64,000 bases of DNA from contig NZ_JAEPBG010000009.1 of the NCBI RefSeq assembly GCF_016632335.1, positions 1 through 64,000 of the forward strand, read 5' to 3'. Under the pieces are notes generated by a model. That model made no database searches. It had not been told where the DNA came from and worked only from the letters and a program-made list of their open reading frames with translations. Below are positions 16,664 through 43,321 of the stretch, piece after piece (the first letter of the stretch is position 1; the number at the start of each line of letters is the position of its first letter). This DNA comes from Noviherbaspirillum pedocola. GTDB lineage: Bacteria; Pseudomonadota; Gammaproteobacteria; Burkholderiales; Burkholderiaceae_D. The position numbers and the translations under genes are program-made.

Positions 16664-16688
16664 CTGGATAAACATACAGTGTTATAGT
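16664..16688 (+). promoter_or_regulatory. LexA-type (SOS) box and possible -10 upstream of the kinase operon
   Basis: CTGGATAAACATACAG at 16664-16679 has the CTG-N10-CAG form with an AT-rich core. It matches the perfect SOS box of lexA at 43306 (CTGTATTTTTATACAG) at both ends and differs mainly in the fourth base. TATAGT at 16683-16688 could be the -10 element. The first gene of the operon starts at 16772. Confidence 0.6.
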
Positions 16689-16771
16689 GTCGCAAAGTGT
16701 TCCACCCGTCTCTCGGCTTGCTGCAAAAGTAGCTCGTGGCGCCACGGACGGTCAAGGTCGGAAAAGAAAGA

Positions 16772-17230
16772 ATGAGAACAATCGGAATTCGGGTCGCCCC
16801 GCGCGCCGTCACCTTTGTAATTTACAACACCGAAGAGAATGAAATCGTTTCCGTAGACAGCATCAAGGTTCCAAAGGCTTTGGAAGTGCCGGATTCGCTT
16901 AAGTTCGTGCGGAATACACTTTTAGACGTAATTCGCGAGTATGGAGTAGAAAAGGCTGGGGTACGTATTACTGAAAGCAATTCGAGGACGATTTCGCATG
17001 AGCGTATTCAAATGGAGGGCGTAATTCAGGAGGCTTTTGCTAGCAGTCCCATTGCTGCTTATTACTGCGGAAGGATTGCCACAATTTCCAAGTATTTGGG
17101 ATTTTCATCCAAGGATTTTGGGAAATATGTTAGCGGAGAACTGGAGCTGGATTGTGTTGAAGATTGGAAGTCTCATAACAAAGAGGAACGTGAGGCGATT
17201 TTGACGGCGTTGGGAGCTGCTAATGCTTAG
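16772..17230 (+). CDS. Small protein of possible RNase H/RuvC-like fold, first gene of a kinase operon
   Basis: 152 residues from the ATG at 16772 with a purine-rich leader. A GTG at 16736 would add 12 residues. The pattern resembles RNase H-fold families such as DUF3010: an opening strand RTIGIRVAPRAVTFVIY, a second strand EIVSVDSIKVP, a long helix, AGVRITES with a Glu, and a helix RIQMEGVIQEAFAS. The usual first-strand acid is Arg here (GIRV), so catalysis is doubtful. The family call is inference from pattern only. It overlaps the kinase gene by eight bases. The coding region is AT-richer than its flanks, which suggests horizontal origin. Confidence 0.45.
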   Translation: MRTIGIRVAPRAVTFVIYNTEENEIVSVDSIKVPKALEVPDSLKFVRNTLLDVIREYGVEKAGVRITESNSRTISHERIQMEGVIQEAFASSPIAAYYCGRIATISKYLGFSSKDFGKYVSGELELDCVEDWKSHNKEEREAILTALGAANA

Positions 17231-18272
17231 ACCAATTGAGCGCGCCCATCTTTCGTTCGAGTTTGTTCGAAATATTGGTCAAGAGGGGAAAAATTCTGAG
17301 GTTTACCTCGCTCGCGACCATCAACTGAATGCTGATTTGGTGATTAAAAAAATCAGCAAAGGGTCTTTCGCTGACCCTGCAGCATATTTCGTCGAAGCTA
17401 GCATTCTTTATCAAAGTGAGCACGCGAACGTCGTTCCTGTTCATTACGCATGCCAGGATGAGGGGTTTATTTACATTGCGATGCCATTTTTCCCAAATGG
17501 GTCGCTGAAGTCATTAATGGATTCCCGGTTTTTGACTGTGCGGGAAATAGTTCGCTTCGCAATACAATTTTTGAGTGGATTGCATAACATTCACACCAAG
17601 GGTCTTATCCATTTCGACATAAAGCCTGACAATATATTGCTGTCGAAAAGGAAAGAGGCTCTTGTTTCTGATTTTGGACTTGCAAAGCAAATGGATTCGG
17701 AAGGCTTTGCAGAGCAGCCAATTTCATATACTAAGATATCTCCCCCGGAGCGCGTTGAAGGGGAGGGGGAATTCAGCATATTGCACGATATCTATCAGAC
17801 AGGTGTTACGCTTTATAGAATGTGCATTGGCGATAAGGAATTTTATCTACAGTGGAATTCTTTTTTTGAAAATGGGGTTTTTCGTCGCGACTTGTTTATG
17901 AGGGCGGTAAAGCAAGGACATTTCCCCGACCGGACGAAGTTTCCTGAGCAAATTCCGCAACGTCTGCGGGCTATTGTTAGGAAATGTATGGCTCCTGAGG
18001 AAGGGAATAGATATCAATCAGTACTTCAAATCACTAATGCGCTTGCAGAAATTGATGGGCCGGAACTGGATTGGCGTTACGAAGTTGCTGCGGATGGAAC
18101 CCGAAGGTGGTCGTGCGTATCAGATGGTAAAGAATGCTTTCTTGTTGTCGACCCTCAAGGGCGTTCAACTGCAAAGAAACAAAATAGAACCAATGCCTAC
18201 ACTAACATCAATGCCTTTTGTAAAGACGCAATAACACCTGATGACGTTCGAACTTTCATAGAGACGATGTGA
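17223..18272 (+). CDS. Hanks-type serine/threonine protein kinase
   Basis: 349 residues, cytoplasmic, without a membrane segment. The kinase motifs are complete: N-lobe lysine in LVIKKI (about 42), a Glu helix (EASILYQSEH), the catalytic loop HFDIKPDN (about 130-137), DFGLA (about 150) and the PPERVEGEGEF activation-segment end. The final 65 residues (LDWRYEVAADGTRRWSC onward to FCKDAITPDDVRTF) form a small unknown domain. Translational overlaps tie it to the genes before and after. Known bacterial defence kinases act by phosphorylating host proteins after phage entry, and a comparable role is inferred from location. Confidence 0.88.
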   Translation: MLRPIERAHLSFEFVRNIGQEGKNSEVYLARDHQLNADLVIKKISKGSFADPAAYFVEASILYQSEHANVVPVHYACQDEGFIYIAMPFFPNGSLKSLMDSRFLTVREIVRFAIQFLSGLHNIHTKGLIHFDIKPDNILLSKRKEALVSDFGLAKQMDSEGFAEQPISYTKISPPERVEGEGEFSILHDIYQTGVTLYRMCIGDKEFYLQWNSFFENGVFRRDLFMRAVKQGHFPDRTKFPEQIPQRLRAIVRKCMAPEEGNRYQSVLQITNALAEIDGPELDWRYEVAADGTRRWSCVSDGKECFLVVDPQGRSTAKKQNRTNAYTNINAFCKDAITPDDVRTFIETM

Positions 18273-18466
18273 TGCAAACCATCAAGAATGCCCGCCCTAA
18301 ACATTTGCTGAGGGAACATCTGACTGTCGCCCCAGTACGCCGGCGGGAATCTATGGCTAAGCGTACGGAAGAGGAAGTATCGGAGTGTCTTCGCCACGGT
18401 GACCCGCATGGGTACACTGACTGGGGATGGTCTCCTGATACTGCCAATGCACATAAGAAGAAATAG
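18272..18466 (+). CDS. Small basic protein, third gene of the kinase operon
   Basis: 64 residues starting at the ATG that overlaps the kinase stop (TGATG, 18270-18274). Rich in Lys, Arg and His: MQTIKNARPKHLLREHL at the start, then EEEVSECLRHGDPHGYTDWG and HKKK at the end. No known domain is recognised. The overlap and shared direction suggest it works with the kinase, as substrate, adaptor or inhibitor. Confidence 0.5.
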   Translation: MQTIKNARPKHLLREHLTVAPVRRRESMAKRTEEEVSECLRHGDPHGYTDWGWSPDTANAHKKK

Positions 18467-18921: not shown

Positions 18922-19749
18922 ATGAAATCCTTCTTGCTCCTCTGCCTTACGCTGGCCGTGCACGCTTTTGCGGCGGCCGGCGCCATCCCCACTGTTGAGC
19001 TCCTGTGGACGGGGAAGGCAGTTCCGTTCTACGGTAATGCGAGCGATGAAGAGCAGCAAAAAGTAATGGTAGCTGTCCGGAGTGACCATATGGCGGAGCG
19101 CATGGCTGCCATCGCCCAAGGCTTTCGACTCCGAAGCAACATCGCGGTCGGGTTCGCCTCTTGCGGTCAGCCTAACGCCGCTTTCATCCCACAAAAGCAA
19201 GTGCTGGTAATTTGTACTGAATTCCTCGAGTTAATTTTGCAGGAGGTGAAAGCGGACCAAAAACTGACATCCCGGCTCGACAAGACTCAGTTGGTCACTT
19301 GGATACGCGGTGTGATATGGGGCGTGTATTTTCACGAGCTGGCTCACGCACTTATCCACGTCAACGGGATTAATGTCACGGGACGGGAAGAGGATGTTGC
19401 TGACCAATTCTCGCTTTGGTATGCCGTAAATTATGTGGACCTCGCCAAGCAGCCGATTGTTACTCCGGTCGTTTGGTTTTGGAGGGCGCTGGCAAAAAGA
19501 CACGACATCGGCGAAATGTCCGATGACGCCTTGCGCAATATCCTGGCAAACGAACATGGCTTGGACGACCAGCGTACCTACAATGTCGCCTGTTGGGCGC
19601 TCGGAGCAAATCCGGAGCGCGGTAGTAAAACGGCGCAATTCGTGGGATTGCCGGAATTGAGGGCTGCACGCTGCCCAAGTGAATATGCCGCGTTGAACGC
19701 GGCAATGCGTAACCACTTCTTCAAATACATCAAGCCAAGACGAAATTAA
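18922..19749 (+). CDS. Exported DUF4344-type zinc metallopeptidase
   Basis: 275 residues with a signal peptide (MKSFLLLCLTLAVHAFAAAG). The zinc motif HELAH lies near residue 138 and the third-ligand region GREEDVADQF near 155, the arrangement of DUF4344 metallopeptidases. Two cysteines in FASCGQPNA and VICTEF may form a disulfide. Function of the family is unknown. It is convergent with the J-domain gene. No ribosome site is obvious. Confidence 0.72.
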   Translation: MKSFLLLCLTLAVHAFAAAGAIPTVELLWTGKAVPFYGNASDEEQQKVMVAVRSDHMAERMAAIAQGFRLRSNIAVGFASCGQPNAAFIPQKQVLVICTEFLELILQEVKADQKLTSRLDKTQLVTWIRGVIWGVYFHELAHALIHVNGINVTGREEDVADQFSLWYAVNYVDLAKQPIVTPVVWFWRALAKRHDIGEMSDDALRNILANEHGLDDQRTYNVACWALGANPERGSKTAQFVGLPELRAARCPSEYAALNAAMRNHFFKYIKPRRN

Positions 19750-19849: not shown

Positions 19850-20458
19850 CTAGGGCGCACCCAGCCGAAATCGGCAGAGAACTGCGTATGCCGCGTTGAT
19901 GCGACGGGCTTCGGCTTGAAAATCTAGCCCCTGCTTGGGGCTCAACAAGGCAATCCGGTCCGGATGCGACTGCTGTACCAGCTGCCGGCGATTTTGCTCA
20001 ATGGCTTCCCATGTTGAGCTCGGAGTTGCCTTCAAGAGTTTGTACGCCTCATCTATGGTTATCGAGAGAGGAACTGTCGCGTCCTTATCAGCTGCTGCAT
20101 TTGCAGGACTGGCTGAACCGATAGAAGACTTCTGTGCGAACCCTGGACGCGACGATTTCGATTCAGCGGTAGTCGGCTCGGCCTTTTCTTGTTGAGATAA
20201 CCTTTCTGACTCACCCCACAAGTCAGGCTGCTTTGTGGGTACCGTCTTTGGAACATCGGCGGACCGAGCGGCCGCAGCACCGGAAGCTGGTGGTGCTTTC
20301 AAAGCCTTCTGAACTTTGCCCAGAAGAGCGACGGCGCTCGGAACTCGCCGGTGTTGCAATTCCTCTGCCAACTCTTTGAGCTTTTTGGCATCGGTCTTTG
20401 CTTCAGCAAACCGCTCCGTCAGCTGCGCTATCGTGTAATGCATTAAGGGGCGTGCCAT
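19850..20458 (-). CDS. J-domain protein at the end of the helicase-nuclease operon
   Basis: 202 residues. N-terminal helices (MHYTIAQLTERFAEAK...LAEELQHRR), a Ser/Ala/Lys-rich linker of about 70 residues, then a C-terminal J domain from about residue 133: TIDEAYKLLKATPSSTWEAI, QQSHPDRIALLSP with the essential HPD, and AEARRINAAYAVLCRF. J proteins stimulate Hsp70/DnaK. The start codon overlaps the helicase stop by one base (TAATG), so it is translated with the helicase and probably regulates or assembles it. Confidence 0.75.
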   Translation of the reverse strand: MARPLMHYTIAQLTERFAEAKTDAKKLKELAEELQHRRVPSAVALLGKVQKALKAPPASGAAAARSADVPKTVPTKQPDLWGESERLSQQEKAEPTTAESKSSRPGFAQKSSIGSASPANAAADKDATVPLSITIDEAYKLLKATPSSTWEAIEQNRRQLVQQSHPDRIALLSPKQGLDFQAEARRINAAYAVLCRFRLGAP

Positions 20459-23400
20459 TACTGAGCAACCTCCTGTTCTTCGTCAATCCCGTACGGGTCT
20501 ACCTCTTTGGCATGTACCCACACTGTACTGTCAACCGATTCCGCGCCAAGCGGCTCGATACCCAATCTACTGAGAGTCTGGAGCAGGTCCTGAAGCACTT
20601 CTTCCCTGCGACGTACAAAGCTGGATGCAAAACAGCGCCAGAATGTCCAGCCTGCTCGCTCCAGCACCCGTTGGCGCGCCATGTCATCCGACCATTGCTC
20701 TGGCCCGTGGAAGCGGTCGCCATCGCACTCGATGGCGAGACGGCGGCCTTCGTTTCCTTCCACTACAAAGTCGATGCGATACCCTCCGCATGGAACTTGC
20801 GGCTGGACTCGATACCCTCGCTTTACGAGTTCATCAAACATCTCAAGCTCAAAGCCTGACTCACATTTCTCCCGCAGCGATTGTATTTTTTGACTTTCTT
20901 GACGGAACGGTTGGCGGAAATGGCGAATGAGCCGAGAGTTCAGCGTGTCCTCTTTGAACGTCGTTTCTGTCACCGACCTAAACAGGTACATCCGGTCCCT
21001 GGCCCGGGACAAGGCGACATTGAATCGCTGGTACATATCGACCTTGTTTTGTGCTGCGCGGTCCCCAGGTGCCAACACCATGGATACCATCATGATGTCC
21101 CGTTCGCGCCCCTGGAATACTGGCGGTGGCCCAACCGCTATCTTCCGTGCCAGGACATCCGCAGGCAAAATCCGATTGCTCACCAGTTCCTGAATATGCG
21201 CAGCTTGTGCGGTGCCCAGCAACGTGACCACACCGATACTTCGCCCGTTGAACAGCTCATCAGCAAGGATTGCCTCGATTTCGCCAACTATAGCTTCGGC
21301 CTCGACAGGATTGACGTCTCCTTTGCGGAACCCTCCTTTAACAAACACATCGACCAATGGCGGGTCAAGGCGCTCATTTGCCTTCGGCAAACGTAAAGGC
21401 TTGATGTCGCCTTCATAAAACTCGCGATTGGAAAATTCGATGATGGCGGGCACACACCGGAAATGCTCTTTGAGCATTACCGAATTTCCAGCAAAGACTA
21501 CTCGTGCCAAGTCGTAGATAGACTTGTCCGGTGTCATTTGTGCACCGTGCGGTTGGTTTCCCAAGAATCGGTTGCTCAACTCCTTGATTTTCTCTTCAGC
21601 CGTGCCGACGGCGGAGGGAGAAACTTGTTTATGGTCGCCCACAACGAGGAGCTTTTTGCCACGCAGCAGAGCTGGCAGCGCCCAGATATCGGACTGAGAG
21701 GCTTCATCGACTACCACCAAGTCAAACAGCCCGACTTCCGCAGGAATGGTTTCCGAAACACGCCATTGTGGGAGTACCCAGCACGGGACGGCCTGATAGG
21801 CCCGAAGCATCGCGTCTCTTGCAGTTTTTCGATGGCGAATTGCGCGCACTCCGGTGCCAGAGCCCATCGCTTGGACGGCATTGAGGTACGCCTGCAAAGC
21901 TTGGCGCACACTATCCGGGGAGTTGTTGAAAACACCCAGCCATGTTTTCTCTGCAACGAGGTCTTGATACGTACGAGCCAAGGCGGTTGTTAATGTCTTT
22001 CTCTCTTCAAAAAGGCTCCGCAACCGCTGGTGCTCGTCAATTTTCTCGAGGAAGAGGGCTGCTTGACGCCAATTCCATGCCTCAAGCCACGTCACGGGCA
22101 CTAAAGGGTCATGGTCGCCGGCAGCAGGCTGGATACGGACACGAGACGCCCATTTGACGGCGCCTGCCGCGTCCAACTGCAGCGCAACACTTTGGATTTG
22201 AGCGAGCGACGGCAGCAGGGCGACTAACCTGGTCAACTCACTCTGTAAGGCTCCCCATGTGGTTTGTAGTACTGCCTCATCCGCTGAAATTCTACCTATC
22301 GACGATGCTAAGAAGCTTCTGATTTCGTCCGTAATGCCTCCCGAGCGCCCCTCTAGCTTCCGCAAGAGTTCCTGCATGCGATTCATCGCGTATGCAAGCC
22401 GGCCTTTGTCGGCATGTGCTTCCAAGCTCTCGGAGAGAACGTTCAAGAATGGTTCACCCTCGTCCCATATTCTGTCGGCTACCTGTTTGCCGAACACTTC
22501 AGAAAGTTGACCATGAAGCTTTGCATCGAACTCAAAGACAAGCCGTTGCATGTCCACGATATGGGTTTTTGCCGCGACGATAGCCTTAAAACCAGCATCA
22601 AAGGCATCGCTTGCAGGTTCTAGCCCGAACTCTCCAGACATCGAATTCCAACGGGCTAGCGCTTTCCGAGCATCTACGCGCCATTTGCAAAGACGTTGAG
22701 CAAACTCCCACTCGTCCGCGGATTTCGGAGCCATGCCTAGTACGGTCACTGTGCTGATAAGCTTCCTTGCCTCGCCCTTTCCGAATGGGAGGGAAAACGC
22801 ACTTTTTCCTGCGACAAGTCGAGTAAGCGCATCATTGAAATCATTGTTCAGCTCCGCGCCAGCAGGCAATTCGACGGCTTTTGATACAAGCTCCTTGCGG
22901 ATGCCTTCCAGGTTCTCGATATCAGTACAGACTTCATTCAACGCTTTCAATAAGGGGTCATCTGCTTTCATGTCCCCCAAGCGTTCCCCAAATGCGTTCA
23001 CCCATGCCTGGCGCGCGCTATCCAACTTGGCGAGAAGCGCTGTACGGTCTTCAATAAACTTGGCAAGAATCTGCACCTTTTCAAGCGTTTCAAGTCGCGC
23101 GTCGACAAGCGGAAGAATGCTCCCTTGCGAAACATTTGTTTCGATAGTGCGCGCTTTTACCAAGTCGCGATGCAATTCCAATAGGTTAGGCCATGCGGGG
23201 AAGTCGCCCGGCATTGGAAGCGAACAACCTAAGTAGCAAAGGTCGGCTCCAACTTTTATCCGAGCTTGACGTAAGACCGTAATGTCCGAATCGGTGAAGG
23301 GCAATTTCTGGTCTTGCATGGCCGGCGGCGCATCGTCAAACCATTCATGCTCTTCGGCCTGCTGCAGCACCGATTTCGCCATTTCTTCGGGTGATACGTC

Positions 23401-24933
23401 TTTACCCTGGAATGAGTAGTTCCGCATGTGCTTGGCCGCAAAGGCGGTAACCGTTTGGTTAACACCGGCAATTTTGGCATGGATGGTGTTAAGCTTTTCT
23501 TCAAGAGCCGTAATGGCGCTCTGCGCCCGCGCTGGATTCAGCGAAGCTACGCTTGATGCAATAGTTTGAATCGAGTGCTCGAATTGCTTCATGCCGTCCC
23601 GCTCATCAGAAAGTAGCGCGATGCTCAGTGGACGAATTCGTTCAGGGAGCTTCTCTTGCAGAACAGCTAAGGCAGACTCGCCTTTGGCCGTTACAAGAAC
23701 CCGTTTTCCTTGGGTGAGGTAGTGCGAGATGACATTCGCAATCGTATGCGTCTTGCCGGTGCCAGGAGGCCCCTGAACCACGACGCCATCGTTGCTTTCG
23801 AGCTTCTGGACAATGGAGACTTGCTCGTCGTTGTAGGGCATCGGGAAATACAGCTCGAAAGCTCCAGTCGGGCTATCGCTCGATGAAAGACCGCGGAATG
23901 GCTGCTCTGGCCGCACGCGAACCGTGGAGTCTCCGTGTTCGACAAAGCTCCGAATCACACCGGGAAGAGCTGGAGCTGCTTCGACACTCTTTTTCAAGCG
24001 ACGAATGTCTTCTAAGAAGATGTCCCCAGTCCGTTTGCGTCCGAATAGGACCCAAGTATTCGTAATCTTGAGCTGAGCGTCCGGCGTTGGCGGAGTAACA
24101 TCGTCAGAGCGCACCTCGTACGCGCCAGAAGGGTCCAAGTGGCCGACTGCGGCTTTCAGGACCCCTTCAAACGTAGACGCTTCGAACGGATTGACTCGGT
24201 GCGCACCGGTGGCCAAGGTGCTTTTCCAGAACGCCTCAAGCGGCCGGACACCGGGCAACTCCATCTCGGCGTAGCAATCGGCCTCAAGCCGGGGTTCAAC
24301 GTCCCTCGGCCTAATTTCGAGGTCAAAAGTCTTCTCGTTGAGCGTTATCTCGCAGGATTGCACCAGGAGCGGATGCTTGACCGCAGTTCCGAACCCTTCC
24401 TTTTTCCAAGCTGCGTAACCAATGCCCCACACGAGTTCTATGGGTGTTTCAGCGCCCTCCGAAGTAATGGCTTGCTGTAGGGCGAACAACTGGTTGTAGC
24501 GCGCGATAGCTTTCCGGCGCGGGCGTTCCGCAGCAGCCCAAGGCTCCCACTGGTATTCCACGTACCAGTCGAACAATTGCTTGATTTCAGGGTGCTCATT
24601 AAGCAGTTCCCGACTGACTTCCCGCTTACCGTCGTAAGCTACACACTCGGACTTCAACTCGGGAATCTTTTCGGGGCTTTTGGGCAGTGTGGTCCAAGGC
24701 CGAAGTTTGTCATCTAGGTCCGGTGCCGGAATTTCTTGAAGGCGTGGTACACGAAGCCAGACGTCGTCCCCCTCAGCCTGCAGGTTGAACTGGAGTTCCG
24801 GAAGCCCCTGGAGTTCGTGCTGATGCGCGACGAAGTACTCCGTCGGGACTGAAAAGCTGGGCTTGGTTTTGAGTTTTTCAACCTGCTCGATGTATGTCAG
24901 CAGGTCGAGAACGCGAGGAGATGCCTCGTTCAT
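20458..24933 (-). CDS. Large SF1 (Upf1/Dna2-like) helicase with C-terminal Vsr/DUF559-like nuclease domain
   Basis: 1491 residues. About 380 residues precede Walker A GPPGTGKTHT (near 388). A long insertion with coiled coil follows, then motif II VVDEASQSD (near 1074), VVGDHKQVSP, and C-terminal helicase motifs including QGRERDIMMVSMV and NVALSRARDRMYLF. From about 1360 a PD-(D/E)XK fold begins: SGFELEMFDELVKRGY, YRIDFVVEGNEG and LAIECDGDRFHG, with D and ExD catalytic residues, then RVLERAGWTFWRCF as in DUF559/Vsr-like enzymes. This layout resembles helicase-Vsr defence proteins such as Hhe (recalled, not searched). It overlaps the RHH gene by ATGA and the J-domain gene by TAATG. Confidence 0.85.
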   Translation of the reverse strand: MNEASPRVLDLLTYIEQVEKLKTKPSFSVPTEYFVAHQHELQGLPELQFNLQAEGDDVWLRVPRLQEIPAPDLDDKLRPWTTLPKSPEKIPELKSECVAYDGKREVSRELLNEHPEIKQLFDWYVEYQWEPWAAAERPRRKAIARYNQLFALQQAITSEGAETPIELVWGIGYAAWKKEGFGTAVKHPLLVQSCEITLNEKTFDLEIRPRDVEPRLEADCYAEMELPGVRPLEAFWKSTLATGAHRVNPFEASTFEGVLKAAVGHLDPSGAYEVRSDDVTPPTPDAQLKITNTWVLFGRKRTGDIFLEDIRRLKKSVEAAPALPGVIRSFVEHGDSTVRVRPEQPFRGLSSSDSPTGAFELYFPMPYNDEQVSIVQKLESNDGVVVQGPPGTGKTHTIANVISHYLTQGKRVLVTAKGESALAVLQEKLPERIRPLSIALLSDERDGMKQFEHSIQTIASSVASLNPARAQSAITALEEKLNTIHAKIAGVNQTVTAFAAKHMRNYSFQGKDVSPEEMAKSVLQQAEEHEWFDDAPPAMQDQKLPFTDSDITVLRQARIKVGADLCYLGCSLPMPGDFPAWPNLLELHRDLVKARTIETNVSQGSILPLVDARLETLEKVQILAKFIEDRTALLAKLDSARQAWVNAFGERLGDMKADDPLLKALNEVCTDIENLEGIRKELVSKAVELPAGAELNNDFNDALTRLVAGKSAFSLPFGKGEARKLISTVTVLGMAPKSADEWEFAQRLCKWRVDARKALARWNSMSGEFGLEPASDAFDAGFKAIVAAKTHIVDMQRLVFEFDAKLHGQLSEVFGKQVADRIWDEGEPFLNVLSESLEAHADKGRLAYAMNRMQELLRKLEGRSGGITDEIRSFLASSIGRISADEAVLQTTWGALQSELTRLVALLPSLAQIQSVALQLDAAGAVKWASRVRIQPAAGDHDPLVPVTWLEAWNWRQAALFLEKIDEHQRLRSLFEERKTLTTALARTYQDLVAEKTWLGVFNNSPDSVRQALQAYLNAVQAMGSGTGVRAIRHRKTARDAMLRAYQAVPCWVLPQWRVSETIPAEVGLFDLVVVDEASQSDIWALPALLRGKKLLVVGDHKQVSPSAVGTAEEKIKELSNRFLGNQPHGAQMTPDKSIYDLARVVFAGNSVMLKEHFRCVPAIIEFSNREFYEGDIKPLRLPKANERLDPPLVDVFVKGGFRKGDVNPVEAEAIVGEIEAILADELFNGRSIGVVTLLGTAQAAHIQELVSNRILPADVLARKIAVGPPPVFQGRERDIMMVSMVLAPGDRAAQNKVDMYQRFNVALSRARDRMYLFRSVTETTFKEDTLNSRLIRHFRQPFRQESQKIQSLREKCESGFELEMFDELVKRGYRVQPQVPCGGYRIDFVVEGNEGRRLAIECDGDRFHGPEQWSDDMARQRVLERAGWTFWRCFASSFVRRREEVLQDLLQTLSRLGIEPLGAESVDSTVWVHAKEVDPYGIDEEQEVAQ

Positions 24934-26479: not shown

Positions 26480-27193
26480 CTAGGGTAATGACTCCACGAA
26501 GGCTCGCGCCCTATAAACATGGGACTCTGGTACCCAGCGAGGCGGGCTGCGCTGGATGCTGACTTTTCCGTCGAAGTTGCTGAACACTTCTCGCGCCTGC
26601 GGCGACAACACCTTCAGCGGCGAGCCCACACCGTTTATACCAACCGTGCTGATGCAGTGCGCGCGTGTCAGTAGCCGGCTGCCGGGTCCGCCTTTGACCA
26701 GCACCAGGCGCTCGCGCTGCTTCTCGAGCACTGCCCAATGCCGCACATGGAAATTGTTTCCGCAGAGCTGATGCAGTTCGCGCTCCGGCAGCGTACTCGC
26801 CAAGCCTGCCCATTGGACAACAAAGTAGCCGACGACATAGAGCGCAGCGGGGCAGTGGTGGCCCCATCCCTCCAGTCCAGCGTAGAAGACCAGCATGTCT
26901 CCCGGCTGCAGGCGTCGCAATCCGGCCTTCGGGCGCGTCGGGTCGCCATAGGTATGCGTCTCGAACTCCGGGTCCCAGTGCATGGTCTGGCCAACCCGGC
27001 GATGCCGAGTCGCCGCAGGAAAATATTCGGAGAGCGGCAAGCCCCGGGTGCCCGTCGCCGCGCCATAGGTATGCGAGCCCAGCCCGGAGGTGTCCGGAAT
27101 CGGAATTAACTCAAACGAATAGTCATGAAACAGCGGCCCCTGCATGCCGCCGGCACCGGCGTCCACTCCCACCCTTAGCAGAACGACCTGCAT
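26480..27193 (-). CDS. Nmad3-type nucleotide-modification-associated protein
   Basis: 237 residues. The N-terminus MQVVLLRVGVDAGAGGMQGP followed by LFHDYSFELIPIPD is the family hallmark as I remember it. Further on come PGDMLVFYAGLEGW, YFVVQWAG, FHVRHWAV, VLVKGGPGSRLLTRA and a C-terminal FVESLP. Nmad families were named from gene neighbourhoods of hypermodified DNA bases. The activity of Nmad3 is not known. It follows the Nmad2-type gene by six bases, so the two are one operon. Confidence 0.65.
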   Translation of the reverse strand: MQVVLLRVGVDAGAGGMQGPLFHDYSFELIPIPDTSGLGSHTYGAATGTRGLPLSEYFPAATRHRRVGQTMHWDPEFETHTYGDPTRPKAGLRRLQPGDMLVFYAGLEGWGHHCPAALYVVGYFVVQWAGLASTLPERELHQLCGNNFHVRHWAVLEKQRERLVLVKGGPGSRLLTRAHCISTVGINGVGSPLKVLSPQAREVFSNFDGKVSIQRSPPRWVPESHVYRARAFVESLP

Positions 27194-27199
27194 CGCGCG

Positions 27200-27994
27200 T
27201 CACACTAGGTCGTTGAGTAGATGCGACAGCGTCCAGCGCCGGCAGGAGCGCGTTGGCCCCGGGTGACTGCGAACCACCATCGGCCGGTCCCACGTGAAGC
27301 TCCATTCCGGGTCGCCCACCAGCAGCGCTGCCGGCCGCGTGTTCTTGCCGATATGTCGGATATCGGCTTCCCATTCCGTGTCCTGCGGGTGGCCGTGGTG
27401 CGCATGCCCGAGAATGGGCGGCAGGTAGTTGTCCACGATGAGCCTGTCGGCCAGCGTCGGCAGTGCCTTTTTCGGCAGGTAGAGGTCGCCCAGCACGTTC
27501 GCGCTGGCGCTCTTGGATTCCACGATGTCGTTGCGCCCGCTTTGCCGCAGCGCCTCCACCAGCGCTGCCTGCGAATCGTATGCGGCGGCCACGCGCATGA
27601 GGTAGACCAGCGATTGTCGCTTGCCAAACTTGACGTCCCAGCTGGAAAGGCCCGCTATCCAGAAGTCGCCCTGCGACCACTGCTGCGAGCTGTGAGCGGT
27701 GCGCATCTCGTGCTTGCAGGTACATAGGGTAATGAGCCCGCCGGCAAAGTTTGGCCCCGACCCGGTCTGCAGAAACAGGTCTGCATACGGTTCCACTGAA
27801 GTCACGGCGTACGCATAGACTTCCATTACGCCCGGGTCGCCCGCCTGGCCAATACGCTGGCGCAGCTCGTCTACCGACAACTGGGCATTGGCGCTGGTAA
27901 TCGGATTGTCTTCCAAGGTGAATCGGCCGCCCGGTTGTGCGCCACAAGCTCCCGAGCTGGGAGGGGTTGCGCCGGAACCGCAAGAATTTGCCAT
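27200..27994 (-). CDS. Nmad2-type nucleotide-modification-associated protein
   Basis: 264 residues from the ATG at 27994 with GAGGA five bases upstream. A longer frame to 28054 is not needed. Conserved-looking blocks are VMEVYAYAVTSVEPYADLF, PNFAGGLITLCTCKHEMR with paired cysteines, GDFWIAGLSSWDVKFGKR, and VYLMRVAAAYD. They match my recollection of Nmad2 (xxGYxTLAxCKPxIR, GDWxxG). It may sense or help make modified bases. It is the first gene of the pair. Confidence 0.62.
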   Translation of the reverse strand: MANSCGSGATPPSSGACGAQPGGRFTLEDNPITSANAQLSVDELRQRIGQAGDPGVMEVYAYAVTSVEPYADLFLQTGSGPNFAGGLITLCTCKHEMRTAHSSQQWSQGDFWIAGLSSWDVKFGKRQSLVYLMRVAAAYDSQAALVEALRQSGRNDIVESKSASANVLGDLYLPKKALPTLADRLIVDNYLPPILGHAHHGHPQDTEWEADIRHIGKNTRPAALLVGDPEWSFTWDRPMVVRSHPGPTRSCRRWTLSHLLNDLV

Positions 27995-28255
27995 GGTTTT
28001 CCTCGCATAGAGTTCGCTCTCCAGCATACCGCGGTGCGGGTGCAAGAAACTCAACTAGCTCAAGTCCCGCGCAAGAACATATTCCACCGGCATATCAGAC
28101 GTGGCTATACCCGAAACCTAAGATTGAGAGCACGTGAGGAGGCGCGCCATTCCGACTTCCATTCTTGCGAATTTCCGCGACCTTGGGGCGTGGCCACGTT
28201 CGGTGCCGGCCATCGTCGTCCATAACGACCCACTCCGGTCACCGAGTATGGCAAC

Positions 28256-42548: not shown

Positions 42549-43232
42549 TTAATTCCAGGAGCGCAAGAGTCCGACCGCCAGCCCTTCAAGCGCGAATTCA
42601 TCGCGCCCGGCTTCAACGCGTATCGGTTCGAAGTCGGGATTTTCAGGCAGCAACTCGATCAGCGAGCCCGACCTCTGATAACGCTTGACCGTGACTTCAT
42701 CGCCAAGACGTGCCACCACGATCTGTCCATTCTTGGCGCTATCCGCCTTTTTCACGGCAAGCAAATCACCATCCATGATGCCGGCATCGCGCATCGACAT
42801 GCCCCGCACCTTCAGCAGGTAATCGGGACGGCTTTTAAATAGAGTCGGATCGACGGTGTACTGCGCATCGATATGCTCCTGCGCGAGAATCGGCGACCCA
42901 GCGGCGACTCGGCCTACCAGCGGCAGCGTCATCTGCATCGCCCCGGGATGCATGATCGGATGCGCGTCGGGGTTGTCCTTCAGCAGAGTGTGTGCATGGG
43001 AGTGCGAGCGGGAAGCGAAAGAATCTCGCAGACGAATTCCGCGCGAGGTACCAGGAAAAATTTCGATGGCGCCCTTGCGCGCAAGCGCCTGCAGATGTTC
43101 TTCCGCAGCATTGGCGGAACGGAAACCAAGCTCCTTGGCGATTTCGGCACGCGTGGGAGGGAAGCCCGTCTTTTCGATGGCATCCCGGATCAACCTGAGG
43201 ATTTGCTCCTGGCGGGCAGTGAGTTTGAGCAT
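42549..43232 (-). CDS. lexA: LexA SOS repressor / self-cleaving protease
   Basis: 227 residues from the ATG at 43232 ([12 protein letters not shown]), supported by AAGGTG upstream. A GTG three codons earlier is possible. The N-terminal winged helix contains [20 protein letters not shown]. The cleavage site is in [11 protein letters not shown] (Ala-Gly), the catalytic Ser in [11 protein letters not shown] and the Lys in [12 protein letters not shown]. It represses SOS genes. Its own promoter carries a perfect box at 43306. The kinase operon at 16.7 kb may also be a target. Confidence 0.95.
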
Positions 43233-43305
43233 GAAATGCACCTTGATTTAAGGGCGTCAGGGAAGCTGAACGACGATGATCGACAATGTGTCTGGGAAAA
43301 GTCGC

Positions 43306-43321
43306 CTGTATTTTTATACAG
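43306..43321. promoter_or_regulatory. LexA (SOS) box upstream of lexA
   Basis: CTGTATTTTTATACAG: CTGT and ACAG arms around eight AT-only bases, a perfect match to the proteobacterial SOS consensus, 74 bases upstream of the lexA start. Confidence 0.9.

Follow-up and report, generated by a model that had tools for sequence, protein, structure and literature searches.

What does a protein kinase encoded between a RuvC-like protein and a small basic protein do in Noviherbaspirillum pedocola, and do the three genes form a system of their own? The operon that raises this question lies in the window analyzed here, the first 64,000 nucleotides of contig NZ_JAEPBG010000009.1. Its three genes are all on the plus strand: gene 1 (16772..17230, from ATG at 16772 to TAG at 17230) encodes a RuvC-fold protein of 152 aa that is a probable pseudo-resolvase, gene 2 (17223..18272, from ATG at 17223 to TGA at 18272) a 349-aa Stk-type protein kinase, and gene 3 (18272..18466, from ATG at 18272 to TAG at 18466) a small basic protein of 64 aa with a pI of 9.6. 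Reading of the open reading frames gives an overlap of 8 bases between gene 1 and the kinase gene, and of TGATG between the kinase gene and gene 3, in agreement with the single translational unit proposed in the initial annotation. The AT-richness also noted there is borne out, the GC content of the operon being 45.6% versus 57.8% for the window, a value equally low in 0.3% of 1.7-kb windows taken in 100-base steps.

The upstream neighbor is a divergently transcribed gene with a RepA match (PF10134) below its cut-off (24 versus 27 bits). Directly 3′ of the operon is a gene identified by Pfam as a DUF4344 putative metallopeptidase (18922-19749, plus strand), the N-terminus of which looks signal-like by eye. 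This part of the window also holds transposases, a ParA and defense-like genes, and core-chromosomal-looking genes, including lexA, are found from about 39 kb onward. The plasmid-like island that had been proposed is only in part supported, by the ParA, the transposases and the RepA match under its cut-off.

The kinase matches the Pfam Pkinase family (E 4.6e-38) and PHROG phrog_2361 (E 2e-69). In an alignment of 54 kinases that includes the window copy and leaves out loci with a cut or unresolved kinase, residues K42, E58, H130, D132, K134, N137, D150, F151, G152, P175, E176, D189, and R263 are invariant in 54/54, and all catalytic motifs are present, as first read. An extra C-terminal domain (residues ~285-348), which had also been recognized, is predicted with high confidence as beta-rich with a final helix; Pfam searches with seven kinase C-terminal pieces gave no match except two weak ones in one piece. 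For residues 281-349 (18063-18269), Foldseek puts AMPK chains first, over 381-388 columns with an rmsd of ~23, which may hint at a KA1-like C-terminal domain. Models of several other defense kinases also match the kinase domain: the best PADLOC PD-T4-6 kinase model covers only residues 13-276 (E 3.9e-37), and the score against the MADS kinase MAD6 of NCBIfam is 112 bits, below the curated cut-off of 460.

The initial annotation knew of no described system with this gene set. That statement has to be revised, because the kinase is related to the exclusion kinase Stk of Stx phages 933W and phi24B, reportedly the subject of Tyler and Friedman in 2004 and of Friedman et al. in 2011, and the trio itself is found in Stx-phage immunity regions. 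By tblastn the window kinase is 42% identical to the kinases of phi24B and P27, and it is 38-42% identical to the prophage kinases compared, being homologous and co-linear with them over the full length. The gene order in Stx phage P27 is cI, DUF3024, gene 1 (annotated as "RuvC-like Holliday junction resolvase"), kinase, small gene, and N. The kinase of the phi24B immunity region bears the annotation stk, and gene 1 and the small ORF were found there by script. The likeness to Stk of 933W and phi24B thus extends from the kinase to the same gene 1 upstream and a small gene downstream; the difference is that the prophage copies follow cI, whereas the window copy lacks cI and has a LexA-type box. 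A DUF3024 gene lies between cI and gene 1 in the Stx-phage immunity regions (L003:3092-3433 and equivalents).

According to PMC3564112, stk is cotranscribed with cI and Stk activity aborts HK97 infection, and Stk is described as nearly inactive in uninfected cells. Expression of stk is placed under pRM, in stable lysogeny only, in PMC3430580, although stk is among the genes unaltered by induction in an RNA-Seq study (PMC4651098). Cotranscription with cI from pRM has no counterpart in the window, where the gene upstream is the divergent RepA-like one and the operon is preceded by the LexA-type box. Since upstream genes vary, the cI/pRM arrangement is, judged by gene order, a trait of the prophage copies and not of the family. 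By homology, the window operon belongs with the Stk exclusion kinases, as a divergent (~40% identical) copy that has an SOS-type box and lies outside a prophage.

The lysogen proteins P2 (17,096 Da) and P3 (13,472 Da) are assigned to genes downstream of cI in PMC3342100. The computed mass of the phi24B gene-1 product is 17,096 Da, that of P2, and the DUF3024 product has a computed mass of 13,472 Da, that of P3. Because of the mass identity with P2, which has a MASCOT score of 39 without significance mark and a listed pI of 5.27 versus 6.60 computed, the pseudo-resolvase is probably made in lysogens.

The AlphaFold2 model of gene 1, obtained with 56 sequences, has a pLDDT of 95.2 and a pTM of 0.90. 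Its best PDB match by Foldseek is RuvC of D. radiodurans (E 1.4e-8), and the TM-score with T. thermophilus RuvC is 0.73-0.74. Resolvases also rank high among viral structure models, amid many unnamed proteins, and phrog_3875, "RuvC-like Holliday junction resolvase", matches gene 1 with an E value of 1.6e-39. A Pfam RuvC match at E <0.1 is found in 12 of the 56 gene-1 members (best 1.8e-4), whereas gene 1 of the window gave nothing beyond one weak Pfam match in Pfam, NCBIfam and PADLOC, and a sequence search of solved structures gave nothing useful. The RNase H/RuvC-type fold suspected for the first gene is accordingly upheld by the structure comparison. A further RuvC-type fold, that of TEFM, is at Foldseek rank 13; TEFM differs in being eukaryotic and without a kinase partner. 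It is a RuvC-like domain in mitochondrial transcription elongation that is not known to cut DNA, and gene 1, as a probable pseudo-resolvase, would be comparable to it in kind. In the gene-1 tree the window copy is on a long branch in no starred grouping, at a fork that the tree does not resolve and that also leads to alphaproteobacterial, cyanobacterial and viral sequences.

Gene 1 shares its fold with the RuvC resolvase but differs in the active site. Among the residues invariant in 56/56 gene-1 sequences are G5, R7, R47, R65, E68, R78, E82, E87, and E141. The catalytic acids of RuvC, D7, E66, D138 and D141, align in gene 1 with R7, with R65, with an unconserved position 138 and with the invariant E141. 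An hhalign comparison of gene 1 with the RuvC of its own genome places R7 on D7 and R65 on E66 (probability just 28%, E 6e-4). Both placements recur when gene 1 and 12 RuvC sequences are aligned together with MAFFT, an alignment in which E141, read by eye, falls on D141; these 12 are from 30 fetched RuvC loci, the other 18 being unmatched by a plus-strand pattern. The first catalytic acid, the one that the initial annotation found lacking, is by alignment replaced by an invariant Arg. According to the profile alignment the second is likely replaced as well, by R65, with the invariant E68 shortly after it. Gene 1 is on these grounds a probable pseudo-resolvase.

The relatives of gene 3 are 50-72 aa long with a median pI of 10.2 (51 sequences), and consist of two short conserved end motifs, one at the N-terminus that resembles KIKNDxxxYxxRxxL and an aromatic one at the C-terminus, around a variable middle. 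A small ORF follows the kinase in 90 of 92 gene-1 loci (89 by a script for which every ORF 35-110 aa in length and close to the kinase stop codon counted, and L043 by reading), the remaining two being contig ends. The gene-3 model matches in 54 of 60 loci fetched through the kinase, and the other six also have a small ORF in place. Gene-3 relatives are under purifying selection, with pN/pS of 0.13-0.56 in 15 non-independent pairs with at least 10 differences, the gene of the window being in none of them. With a model built without it, gene 3 of the window scores above all other window ORFs, and 1 of 2000 shuffles scored higher; by sequence it is weakly matched to its family. Searching solved structures by sequence with gene 3 gave nothing useful, and hits to virus capsid chains at E ~0.05 were taken as chance.

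The linkage of the three genes was assessed in 92 loci, all fetched via gene 1: 39 from 84,980 species genomes, 52 from viral contigs, and L002. The 39 are a lower bound, having been found with one 9-residue pattern, and for viral relatives a single-protein scan gave 0 and an alignment scan 52. Kinase sequence is directly 3′ of gene 1 in 91/92 loci; the exception, L054, ends at the stop codon of gene 1. The gap between gene 1 and the kinase gene is −8 to +2 nt in the 86 of 92 loci where both starts resolve. Outside these 86 are L048, where the contig start cuts gene 1, L054 (contig end), L057, where the contig ends within the kinase, as well as L055, L065, and L071, where kinase homology is present and its start or frame could not be placed. 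Many of the viral loci are near-identical E. coli prophages, and 55 sequences were left after removal of same-length ones more than 93% identical. In the reverse direction, 60 viral loci were fetched by kinase alignment, and all but L174, which begins at the kinase, have gene 1 before it (59/60); the two peptide patterns of this check come from this subfamily, distant kinases being outside its scope. Homologs only rarely adjacent had been named as evidence against a module. Adjacency proved near-universal in both directions, and both exceptions are contig ends.

Protein distances between loci are correlated, with r values of 0.89 for gene 1 versus kinase (53 loci), 0.73 for gene 1 versus gene 3 (50 loci), and 0.79 for kinase versus gene 3 (50 loci), and 0 of 2000 permutations were as high. 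What such correlated sequence distances show is shared descent and not function. The strict linkage suggests, at the level of gene order, a three-part system; if Stk alone suffices, the partners would be less essential than the linkage suggests.

Loci with the small basic ORF in place come from Pseudomonadota, from one cyanobacterium and from Bacillus phages. With gene 1 as query, tblastn yielded 14 phage and 5 plasmid records, each less than 60% identical over at least 80% of the query. They extend to Bacillus phage SPbetaL7, which has the trio, and to a Providencia plasmid with the trio amid phage genes. A Mesorhizobium plasmid has the gene 1/kinase pair annotated and the small ORF unannotated, and in a Klebsiella plasmid copy the kinase is broken by insertion sequences. 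The P27 trio was found by megablast in 223 of 5426 complete E. coli genomes; in 221 the match spans 80% or more of its length. In even samples the family is present in 2/399 genomes of the order and 2/398 of the phylum, both counts including the window's own genome. The family is rare and patchy, and many copies of the trio are in prophages or viral contigs.

The genes around the trio are diverse. Of 37 upstream proteins, 4 match S24 peptidase, a proportion that may overstate repressors since for L041 and L046 a second, repressor-like upstream protein was added by size and place; others match integrase, relaxase, macro-domain and transposase families. The set is without the duplicates L023 and L032 and without loci lacking an upstream ORF. 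The idea that the module is a prophage immunity gene only was rejected because of this diversity. Among 125 flank proteins from 35 loci there are single matches to SAVED-HNH, dGTPase, AbiE, DrmD, SduA, and methyltransferase PADLOC models (E 1e-15 or better, among the 25 listed of 66 matched families); the counts cover the flanks of the trio only.

The LexA-type box CTGGATAAACATACAG (16664..16679, plus strand) has 3 mismatches relative to the E. coli consensus CTGTATATATATACAG, from which sites with up to 3 mismatches were searched. The window contains two such sites versus 0.02 expected from 100 shuffles, the one at 16664 and one at 43306 upstream of the window's lexA (42549-43241, minus strand; Pfam LexA and S24), so that the box reported just upstream of the operon is there and can be compared with that of lexA. 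Genome-wide enrichment is just twofold, with 12 sites in 7.24 Mb versus 6 for a reversed control, and about half of the 12 may be chance matches. At the control density, the hand-calculated chance that a site falls within the 110 bases preceding gene 1 is ~1 in 10,000. Among the 10 other sites in the genome, CTGGATTTATGTACAG is ~80 nt before recA and another is at the beginning of an imuA-like ORF, which it overlaps (genes named by eye), and beside the remaining eight no SOS gene was recognized. The operon box and the recA box have a common CTGG start and 3 mismatches each, so by the mismatch measure the former is as good as the latter. A TATAGT −10-like hexamer follows the box at 16683-16688, by eye; a consensus promoter scan listed no promoter at the box or hexamer. 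The operon is on this evidence a candidate for LexA/SOS control, with LexA predicted to bind the box.

The upstream regions of relatives were searched for E. coli-, alphaproteobacteria- and Xanthomonas-type motifs alone, in 70 stretches of 156-400 bases, with L001, L006, and L009 omitted and stretches with identical last 150 bases listed once. An E. coli-type box occurs in the stretch from the window and in 0 of the 69 others, and GAAC-type repeats are upstream of gene 1 in two other loci (L030 and L051). SOS control as a family trait was rejected. Because only the window's stretch has the E. coli-type box, SOS control is best taken as a local trait of the window copy and not of the family, as far as these motifs tell.

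The reading that we prefer, with a probability of roughly 60%, is that the operon is a Stk-type module for phage exclusion, directed against phages, that was laterally acquired and came under the host SOS response, with the kinase as effector and two partners. Phage infection would trigger the kinase, which would phosphorylate itself and cell targets, and the infection would be aborted. The RuvC-fold protein would most likely be a non-cutting sensor or regulator that recognizes branched or recombining DNA, or a phage protein bound there, and would pass the recognition signal on to the kinase. The small basic protein would most likely connect these two, as a flexible tether or as an inhibitor, and LexA control would raise the dose of the module when phage or damage exposes single-stranded DNA.

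What the trigger might be is suggested by phage HK97. Friedman and colleagues reportedly named HK97 Orf41 as the trigger of Stk in 2011, and the HK97 record has an erf-like annealing gene and a "recombinase" between Gp40 and Gp43 (L203, 24175-25042). By the numbering of the record, we take Gp41/Orf41 to be the Erf-like single-stranded DNA-annealing protein, and a possible Stk trigger. With these two genes in the Gp40-Gp43 slot, a recombination-sensing role is attractive, though unproven. A more specific version of the preferred reading, which we hold only tentatively, is that the trio senses phage recombination: a resolvase fold that has lost its catalytic acids, with two Arg in the old active site, would read branched DNA or a phage annealing protein and switch on the infection-aborting kinase. 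If true, the pseudo-RuvC would represent a new way to sense phage DNA recombination.

A less probable account than the preferred reading, and in our view a doubtful one, is that the operon is toxin-antitoxin-like. The kinase would then be a growth-inhibiting toxin, gene 1 and/or gene 3 the antitoxin, and phage or SOS stress would break the complex, defense being one outcome. The tight translational coupling and the small basic partner are consistent with this, as are the near-inactivity of Stk described for uninfected cells and the toxin-antitoxin-like kinase precedents KKP (PMC11341870) and HipBST. However, neither the 56 gene-1 members nor gene 3 of the window gave a convincing Pfam match to a DNA-binding antitoxin domain; moreover, one kinase with two non-kinase partners is unlike KKP. 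It is unlikely that the operon serves host DNA-damage signaling and not defense, with an SOS-induced kinase modifying repair or division proteins to which the RuvC-like adaptor guides it. A box like that of recA and the RuvC fold of gene 1 would fit such a role, but the E. coli-type box is confined to the window among the stretches compared (0/69 others), the family is rare and patchy (2/399 of the order and 2/398 of the phylum, with the window's genome included), and prophages or viral contigs account for many of its copies. That gene 1 is an active resolvase with a changed active site, working on phage DNA under regulation by the kinase, we regard as very improbable: its fold, its annotation and the invariant E141 and E68 could be cited for it, and against it are the Arg in place of D7 in 56/56 sequences and the invariant Arg aligned with E66.

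Compared with other kinase-based systems, the Stk-kind module that we favor stands apart in composition. Staphylococcal Stk2, which Depardieu is said to have described in 2016, is likewise a eukaryotic-like kinase directed against phage. In PMC11341870 it is described as a single locus, the kinase, and by that description is set apart from the trio. KKP of Pf prophages (also PMC11341870) is likewise a prophage-borne kinase defense module but comprises two kinases and a phosphatase, whereas the window operon has one kinase and no phosphatase; no second kinase and phosphatase of the KKP type were found, the gene downstream being the DUF4344 putative metallopeptidase. CapK-CapS similarly couples DNA damage to immunity via a kinase, but according to PMC13373217 CapK resembles anti-sigma-factor (GHKL) kinases and the other components differ.

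What is new is the place of the Stk-type kinase in a conserved unit of three genes, one of which encodes a probable pseudo-RuvC. Our literature search, with Friedman 2011 and Tyler and Friedman 2004 outside its scope, found no description of the trio. The literature covered describes Stk of 933W as an exclusion kinase on its own, whereas in the loci examined it is hardly ever without the pseudo-RuvC and the small basic protein. The three-part view gives a testable sensor and a testable inhibitor, and the SOS-boxed, non-prophage copy would be convenient to study in a laboratory strain, with no toxin-carrying phage involved.

Two further groups of genes are found downstream of the operon in the window. 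At 19850-24933, on the minus strand, a weak DnaJ-domain protein adjoins a 1491-aa helicase with a terminal MTES_1575 restriction-endonuclease domain; the top PADLOC model for this region is PDC-S37 (E 9.5e-66), followed by Hhe, MkoC and MkoA. At 26480-28054, also on the minus strand, two adjacent ORFs have matches to domains associated with nucleotide modification, Nmad3 at E 3.7e-25 and Nmad2 below its cut-off.
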